A stretch of DNA of 64,000 nt from Sinimarinibacterium arenosum (lineage in GTDB: Bacteria > Pseudomonadota > Gammaproteobacteria > Nevskiales > Nevskiaceae), in the NCBI RefSeq assembly GCF_005047655.1, contig NZ_SUKF01000004.1:62001-126000 (forward strand). Reading direction: 5' to 3'. Below are positions 47,341 to 49,107 of the stretch, piece after piece (position 1 is the stretch's first letter; every line of letters begins with the position of its first letter). The position numbers and the translations under genes are program-made. The notes below the pieces were generated by a model that saw only the letters and a program-made list of their open reading frames with translations, had not been told where the DNA came from and searched no databases.

Positions 47341-49107
47341 CTATTCCTGAGCCCAGCCGAACTTGTCGACGGCATTGAAGATATCGGTCTCGGTGACGAT
47401 GCCGATGATCTTGCCGCTCTGCTCGACCGTCATGCGGCTGTAGTCCGAATCCGAGATGCGTGCAGCCGCCTCGCGGATGCTCAACTCGGCCGGCACTGAC
47501 GCCACTGGGCGGGTACAGACATCCTGAACCCGCGTGGTCGCCGGATTCTTGCCGGCATGAACGATCTTGGCGACGATGTCGCGGCGCGTGACGATGCCCC
47601 AGACGCCATCGGCATTCGGCTCAACAACCACTGAGCTGACGTCGTTGTCCGTCATCACATGCATTGCGCTTTCGACCGTTTCGCTATCGGTGACGGTAAT
47701 CAGGGAACGCGTCATCAGATCGGCCACGGTCTGCGGGACGCGACCGGAATCGATCATCTCTTCCATCGGCTGCAACAGGCGACGGATCTCGCGCTGCTTG
47801 CGCTCCTTGATCAGCTGCGCCTGCAATGCCTTGCGCTTGGCCTCCAGATCGACGCCGCCGTTGATGCGCTCGATCAGTGCATCGGCAAACTGGCTGGTGC
47901 CGACTTCCTTGGCGCCATCGATCTGACGCGCAAAGTCGTAGGTCACGATGCCGTCGGCGATCACCTCCGGATACACCAGCGTGATCAGATCTGCAGCCTC
48001 GTTCCAACCCATGTACTCCAGCATCATCACACCGGAGAACAGCAGCGAACCTGGGTTGACCTTGTTGAGGTTGGCGTATTTCGGCGCGGTGCCGTGAGTC
48101 GCTTCGAACACCGCGACGTGATCGGCAATATTTGCGCCCGGCGCGATCCCCATGCCGCCGACTTCCGCCGCGATCGCGTCGGACAGGTAATCCCCGTTTA
48201 GATTGGTCGTGGCGAGCACGTCGAACTCGTCCGGACGCAGCAACATCATCTGGAACATGATGTCGGCAATGCGGTCCTTGATGACAATCTTGCCTTCGGG
48301 CTGCTTGCCCTTGTACTCGGCGTAGAGCTGCTCTTCGGTGATGGTGACGCTGCCGAATTCCTCGCGTGCGACTTCGTAGCCCCAGTTGCGGAACGCACCT
48401 TCGGTGAATTTCTGGATGTTGCCCTTGTGCACCAGGGTCACCGATTCGCGACCGTTGTCGATCGCGTACTGGATCGCCTTGCGCACCAGACGCTTGGAAC
48501 CGAATTCCGAGATCGGCTTGATACCGATGCCCGCACCTTCGAAGAACTTGGCCTTCATCTCCTCGCGCAAGAACTTCGCGATCTTCTCGTTCTCCGGCGT
48601 GCCGGTCTTGTATTCGATACCGGCGTAGACGTCCTCGGTGTTCTCGCGGAACAACACGACATCGACCTTGCCCGGATTCTTCAGCGGGCTTGGCACACCG
48701 GCATAGTGACGCACCGGGCGCACGCAGGCGTACAGATCGAGATCCTGGCGCAGCGCAACGTTGAGGCTGCGGAAGCCGCCACCGACCGGGGTGGTCAACG
48801 GGCCCTTGATTGAAACCACCAGATCCTGCAGGACTTTCAGGGTTTCGTCCGGGCAGTAATTGCCGTCGTAGAGGCCTGCGGCCTTTTCGCCGAGGTAGGT
48901 TTCGCACCAGTGAATCTTGCGCGTGCCGCCGTAGGCCTTCTCGACCGCAGCGTCCCAGATGCGCAGGCAGGCTTTGGTGATGTCCGGCCCGATGCCATCG
49001 CCTTCGACATAACCCACGATCGCCTGGTCTGGCACCTTCAGCTTGCCGTTCTCGACGGTGATTTTTTCGCCGGTGGTGGGAATTTTGATATGGCGATACG
49101 CGGACAT
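47341..49107 (-). CDS. icd: NADP-type isocitrate dehydrogenase with a C-terminal CBS-domain pair
   Basis: Residues 1 to about 416 are a full E. coli-type Icd: [20 protein letters not shown] (about 33-52), [17 protein letters not shown] with Ser114 at the place of the regulated serine, [43 protein letters not shown] and [11 protein letters not shown]. Tyr390 and Arg394 in [10 protein letters not shown] indicate NADP+ use. After INGG a charged helical linker (about 418-455) leads to two CBS motifs. The first (about 460-515) has [17 protein letters not shown] and [14 protein letters not shown]. The second (526-582) has [18 protein letters not shown] and [14 protein letters not shown]. The total is 588 residues against about 416 usual. 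The frame is continuous with no stop between the parts. CBS pairs usually bind adenine nucleotides, so allosteric control by energy state is a plausible inference. Confidence 0.93.

Follow-up and report, generated by a model that had tools for sequence, protein, structure and literature searches.

In a stretch of 64,000 nucleotides of the Sinimarinibacterium arenosum genome (assembly GCF_005047655.1, contig NZ_SUKF01000004.1, positions 62,001 to 126,000; hereafter the window), a type I NADP isocitrate dehydrogenase (Icd) runs in a single reading frame into a C-terminal pair of CBS domains. We consider it probable that this protein, Icd-CBS, is a competent Icd whose CBS tail binds adenine nucleotides and thereby allosterically tunes the split of isocitrate between the TCA cycle and the glyoxylate shunt. 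A nucleotide-sensing role of the tail appears plausible and is supported by the conservation of its residues and by its modelled fold.

Results

The icd-CBS gene (P0001; 47341..49107, minus strand) has 588 codons, starts with ATG and contains no break. On the 588-aa product, Pfam places Iso_dh at residues 31-410 and adds two CBS stretches; Pfam, NCBIfam, alignment and the fold matches 5m2e and 4ajb delimit a type I NADP isocitrate dehydrogenase part at residues 1-416 (47860..49107). A conserved linker seen in alignment and model (residues 417-459, 47731..47859), with a predicted long helix at 421-445, is followed by CBS domain 1 (residues 461-516, 47560..47727) and CBS domain 2 (residues 527-580, 47368..47529), all on the minus strand. 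The two CBS domains (PF00571) clear the Pfam cut-off of 24 bits with 50.5 and 45.3 bits, and the whole protein reaches 83.5 bits. The original prediction of an unbroken chain of Icd, linker and CBS pair is thus borne out by one 588-codon frame on which Pfam and NCBIfam agree. We also checked for a frameshift or an assembly join as the source of the fusion, and both are ruled out, since the same fusion recurs in other assemblies, in 33 of 61 genomes and at 75 of 80 loci from named records. Directly downstream of icd, the window encodes a stand-alone MoCF/CinA-like protein (46493-47266, minus strand), and a similar one lies beside icd in two relatives, G054 and G059.

The 61 genomes comprise the window's own and 60 relatives. 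Apart from the 33 with a full-length fusion, two (G054 and G059) carry a type I Icd of ~420 residues without CBS domains and 26 have no type I Icd, the type I rows lying below E of 1e-220 and the remaining rows above 1e-60. In a class sample of 369 genomes, 263 have a type I Icd (E <= 1e-100) and at least 22 of these are fused, a lower bound with matches listed to about E 3e-154 and the long frames of unfused rows partly read. A phylum sample of 398 genomes gave three matches at E <= 1e-190, a threshold that would miss more diverged fusions; all three come from Gammaproteobacteria, and two are fused. A genome-wide scan with one CBS1 peptide pattern led to 123 stretches, of which 113 were confirmed and 80 loci kept; with a single pattern and 80 of 113 stretches retained, further fusions were likely missed. 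At 75 of the 80 kept loci the fusion begins no later than residue 12 and reaches at least residue 583, while four (L126, L136, L139, L150) are cut by a contig end and one, L128, has frame breaks. In the latter (~2750-4510, Alkalilimnicola ehrlichii AK92), icd-CBS is unreadable in one frame, through either a sequencing error or a broken gene.

Titles of fusion-bearing records include Solimonas, Fontimonas, Sinimarinibacterium, Nevskia, Hydrocarboniphaga, Salinisphaera, Nitrococcus, Halorhodospira, Aquisalimonas, Arhodomonas and Plasticicumulans as well as numerous MAGs. The named isolates closest to the window fusion belong to Sinimarinibacterium (90%) and Fontimonas (89%). The extension had been held to be uncommon. 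It is indeed rare among Icd genes (at least 22 of 263), but old and widespread within part of the Gammaproteobacteria. Three records titled Verrucomicrobia, Endozoicomonas and Nitrospira (L086, L105, L129) carry an icd-CBS like that of Nevskia, Salinisphaera or other gammaproteobacteria and are perhaps mislabelled or mis-binned.

Several lines of evidence point to an intact enzyme in the N-terminal part. It belongs to the NCBIfam equivalog for NADP Icd, TIGR00183, scoring 633.6 bits where 567.3 are required, and aligns with E. coli Icd (1ai2) over residues 7-414 and with Pseudomonas Icd over residues 3-414. The catalytic part, the active-site serine and the NADP residues are thus common to the window protein and E. 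coli-type Icd (TIGR00183; 1ai2, 5m2e), whereas the E. coli enzyme is a 416-residue chain to which the window protein adds linker and CBS pair. Ser114 (codon at 48766..48768, minus strand) is aligned with Ser113 of the E. coli enzyme, the residue targeted by AceK. The catalytic and NADP residues include Lys343, Tyr344, Tyr390 and Arg394. All 15 active-site or cofactor positions examined are invariant in an alignment of 76 fusions, namely the window and the 75 full-length named-record loci; among them, Ser114, Tyr390 and Arg394 had been claimed to be kept, as they indeed are. The best PDB matches of the full-length model are the Icd of Pseudomonas (5m2e) and of E. coli (4ajb). We hence infer from sequence comparison that the Icd part is a catalytically competent, NADP-specific, homodimeric enzyme. 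Another member of the Icd superfamily, the TIGR02924 enzyme (2d1c; 473-496 residues), is also longer than the Icd core and has a C-terminal part; the window protein lies outside that family, with 224.2 bits against a cut-off of 561.35 and a match that covers the Icd part alone.

The tail is conserved as well. In the 76 fusions, E440, P447, M451, G455 and P458 of the linker are invariant, and so are M465, W503, G504, I505, T507 and D510 of CBS1. For CBS2, R558 and G569 are invariant, position 572 is always S or T and D575 is kept in 75 fusions. A study on an adenosine-phosphate-regulated CBS pyrophosphatase defines G-h-h-S/T-x-x-D/N as its ribose-phosphate binding motif (PMC11172384). Both domains of the window protein keep this motif, as G-I-V-T-R-R-D in CBS1 (residues 504-510, 47578..47598, minus strand) and as G-I-V-T-E-T-D in CBS2 (residues 569-575, 47383..47403, minus strand), and it is retained in 76 of 76 fusions for CBS1 and in 75 of 76 for CBS2. 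Comparing the window with six named relatives, we obtained dN/dS of ~0.07-0.11 in the Icd part, compared with ~0.14-0.26 in the CBS pair; the tail hence evolves faster than Icd, yet is under clear purifying selection.

The full-length single-chain model (pLDDT 80.5, pTM 0.67), which does not fix how the CBS pair is oriented towards Icd, contains a long helix between the two at residues 421-445. A tail-only model (pLDDT 86.9) confirmed the CBS fold, with Z of 14.7-20.5 among the 50 matches listed; the structure-related alignments took in the window plus 48 and the window plus 42 named loci. Closest among these 50 is CBS-CP12 (Z 20.5, rmsd 1.8 over 130 aligned residues), and CBSX2 with AMP and AcuB with AMP/ADP match at Z of ~17. 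All three proteins were also retrieved with a sequence profile of the tail.

From the window itself, the original prediction could not tell whether AceK is present. A profile search (PF06315) that matched the E. coli positive control gave no AceK match in any of the 61 genomes, neither in that of the window, which is 99% complete, nor in the 60 relatives. Isocitrate lyase, on the other hand, is found in the window's genome as two adjoining matches in one frame (profile positions 6-253 and 352-526), and family matches occur in 60 of the 61 genomes, at E < 1e-17 in 57. With isocitrate lyase present and AceK not found, the tail probably is a built-in control of the isocitrate split.

Across the class sample, AceK was detected in 56 of 369 genomes. 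Regardless of isocitrate lyase, it occurs in one of 22 recognised fused genomes vs 46 of 241 unfused ones, a difference that is not significant (p=0.14). AceK is sensible only together with isocitrate lyase, and we therefore conditioned the count on this enzyme. The search for it covered every one of the 22 fused genomes and, out of the 241 unfused genomes, 80 that were hand-picked at about every third label. An isocitrate lyase was called at E < 1e-17, a value chosen after viewing the results that excludes shorter lyases of ~300 residues, and one unfused genome, G232, was left out since a contig end truncates its Icd. The lyase is then present in 20 of 22 fused genomes (in G360 by a 120-residue fragment) vs 18 of 79 unfused ones (p=7e-9, kinship ignored). 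Given isocitrate lyase, AceK accompanies one of 20 fused vs 10 of 18 unfused Icd (p=0.0009, kinship ignored; 10 of 19 unfused with G232); counted by family, the figures are 1/14 vs 8/16 (p=0.017, kinship again ignored). Pairing on the tree leaves only four independent pairs, which gives no statistical power; under the median pairing, one of the four differs in AceK, in the predicted sense. AceK was not detected despite isocitrate lyase in eight of the 18 unfused and 19 of the 20 fused genomes. The sole fused genome with AceK, G272, has a divergent copy that scores 203 bits vs mostly 314-424 for the other full-length ones.

Among the 61 genomes, the type of NADP isocitrate dehydrogenase (IDH) alternates. 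A full-length match to monomeric IDH occurs in 25 of the 26 genomes that have no type I Icd, and both types coexist in 10 of the 33 fused genomes. All 26 also have no AceK, and from this it follows that neither control is indispensable. Monomeric IDH gave no match in the window's genome and is hence rejected as its NADP enzyme. A second Iso_dh protein of this genome (L010 1474-2511; best NCBIfam match PRK08997, 435 bits, below the cut-off of 510) looks like a homodimeric NAD-type IDH, the cofactor type being our reading, and a third family member (C18) is present. G059, whose Icd is devoid of the CBS tail, contains a monomeric-IDH-like piece of 130 codons with four internal stops (G059:C38:29195-29584).

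Icd trees were built from a selection, with 17 of the 80 named loci and loci of further genomes. The first omits L069 and L073 (the same genes as L171 and L172), and the second, with 63 rows, additionally omits L166 (long branch) and L101, L118, L133, L149 and L151 (identical Icd rows); the positions of L071, L072 and L074 differ between the two. On the 63-row tree, the fused and unfused states need five changes. A single origin without loss was rejected, as a constraint that unites all fused rows in one clade fails the AU test (p=3.75e-05), and hence either losses or repeated gains are needed. The linker residues that are invariant in 76 fusions, together with a linker stub in G235, favour losses: next to fused members of its own family, G235 encodes Icd and a linker stub that ends in a stop. 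The history that we favour from these sequences would thus be one old gain followed by several losses. G054 and G059, of the same order as the window, have a tail-less Icd with a MoCF/CinA-like protein behind and a superoxide dismutase ahead of icd. G054 also shares a glutaredoxin neighbour with the window, where a DJ-1 gene lies in between (open reading frames read by eye). Since these neighbours resemble those of the window, the tail seems to have been lost in place.

Six other tail-less genomes (G253, G208, G216, G326, G110, G352) group with 11 fused rows on a branch with support 100/98, within which the forks are weaker (89/81, 94/28). AceK is encoded in five of the six; three of these genomes, G216, G326 and G352, have aceK immediately after icd in the same orientation. 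In G110, icd is ~190 bases from a contig end, and aceK may thus be missing from this assembly; G253 is just 58% complete. By contrast, the profile search found no AceK in six genomes whose Icd has no CBS pair and branches within or next to the fused clade, namely G054, G059, G235, G065, G170 and G384.

Discussion

The TCA cycle and the glyoxylate shunt compete for isocitrate, and its division between them is a textbook example of a bacterial enzyme being regulated through phosphorylation, here by AceK. To our knowledge, the mechanism of this division in bacteria without AceK is mostly open in general, and the fused CBS pair would provide a further answer. In the mechanism that we infer, Icd-CBS would be an active dimer in which the C-terminal Icd helix runs via the conserved helical linker into the Bateman (CBS-pair) module. 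Binding of adenine nucleotides to this module would adjust Icd activity by allostery. AMP and ADP might favour active Icd and ATP might restrain it, a direction that is our guess. Physiologically, the tail could do part of the job that AceK does elsewhere, as a built-in control at the isocitrate branch point.

The CBS pair could instead act as an assembly module that joins Icd dimers into tetramers or larger oligomers or docks them to partner enzymes, any ligand effect being secondary. Such a role would agree with a closest fold, among the 50 matches, that is the hexameric CBS-CP12, and with a linker whose degree of conservation is about that of the CBS pair (mean entropy 1.42 vs 1.37 and 1.58). 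Pure assembly, however, does not require the ribose-phosphate motifs that 75-76 of the 76 fusions have kept, and we hold it to be an unlikely explanation. Comparably small is the chance that the tail senses another ligand, i.e., SAM/MTA, NAD(P)H or a dinucleotide such as Ap4A, and so reports on the methylation, redox or stress state. A fold match by itself indicates no ligand: according to structure entry titles, SAM/MTA and Mg-ATP are likewise ligands of CBS pairs with this fold, and the matches of the tail model include one with SAM/MTA (3kpc) and AcuB with Ap4A (9s4y). Entries titled with AMP, ADP or ATP are commoner among the 50 matches listed, but several of them are one protein, AcuB, so that the fold does not decide. 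Finally, the repeated occurrence of tail-less Icd inside the fused clade, and G235 with its linker stub only, would be expected if the tail were a dispensable remnant with no regulatory effect. Values of dN/dS well under 1 in all six pairs and motif residues that are invariant across 76 fusions speak against a remnant, which appears very improbable to us.

A nucleotide-sensing tail on a competent Icd, the reading that we prefer, has counterparts in other enzymes. IMP dehydrogenase has a catalytic fold unrelated to Icd and carries its CBS pair as an insert. Like Icd-CBS it is a dehydrogenase with a Bateman domain, although in Icd-CBS this domain is a C-terminal tail. Its allosteric control by purine nucleotides on the Bateman domain is described in PMC4660370. 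Pyrophosphatases are another enzyme family with and without a CBS pair and share the G-h-h-S/T-x-x-D/N motif with Icd-CBS; PMC11172384 lists a form without CBS domains and a CBS form on which AMP/ADP act as inhibitors and ATP as an activator. In the latter form, the CBS pair is inserted in the catalytic domain and regulation was measured, whereas in Icd-CBS it forms a C-terminal tail and regulation is predicted. The cyanobacterial CBS-CP12 (5nmu, 5npl, 5nvd), with 28-30% identity the closest solved fold to the tail among the matches listed, is hexameric by its entry titles and has its CBS pair fused to CP12 instead of an enzyme; our literature search returned no paper on CBS-CP12.

At the branch point itself, PMC4999502 presents E. 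coli Icd as controlled by AceK, which was not found in the window's genome, and mycobacterial ICD as activated by glyoxylate, another solution to the branch-point problem. A separate kinase/phosphatase and metabolite activation thus act at the same branch point for which we propose the fused CBS pair. The literature search, by title and abstract and with few subscription journals covered, yielded no description of an Icd-CBS fusion among the papers listed, which is weak evidence. In one of these papers, PMC4720418, cystathionine occurs solely in the reference list. Icd-CBS joins two known parts, an enzyme and a sensor module, in a pairing that we did not find described.

A more far-reaching reading is that Icd-CBS is a distinct and ancient branch-point control, with an energy sensor joined covalently to Icd, for which AceK could substitute in evolution and vice versa. 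It would have been gained one time, in a part of the Gammaproteobacteria with a glyoxylate shunt, and replaced in at least one lineage by aceK directly behind a shortened icd. We put this forward tentatively and with some doubt. The Icd tree offers natural experiments here, as it contains close relatives in three states: CBS pair present, CBS pair absent, and aceK following icd. Beyond the common AceK, a divergent AceK type of ~195-218 bits in frames of 597-624 codons occurs in G272, G152 and G418 (L174, L175, L176), the last of which has both types; it is possibly a kinase with another substrate.
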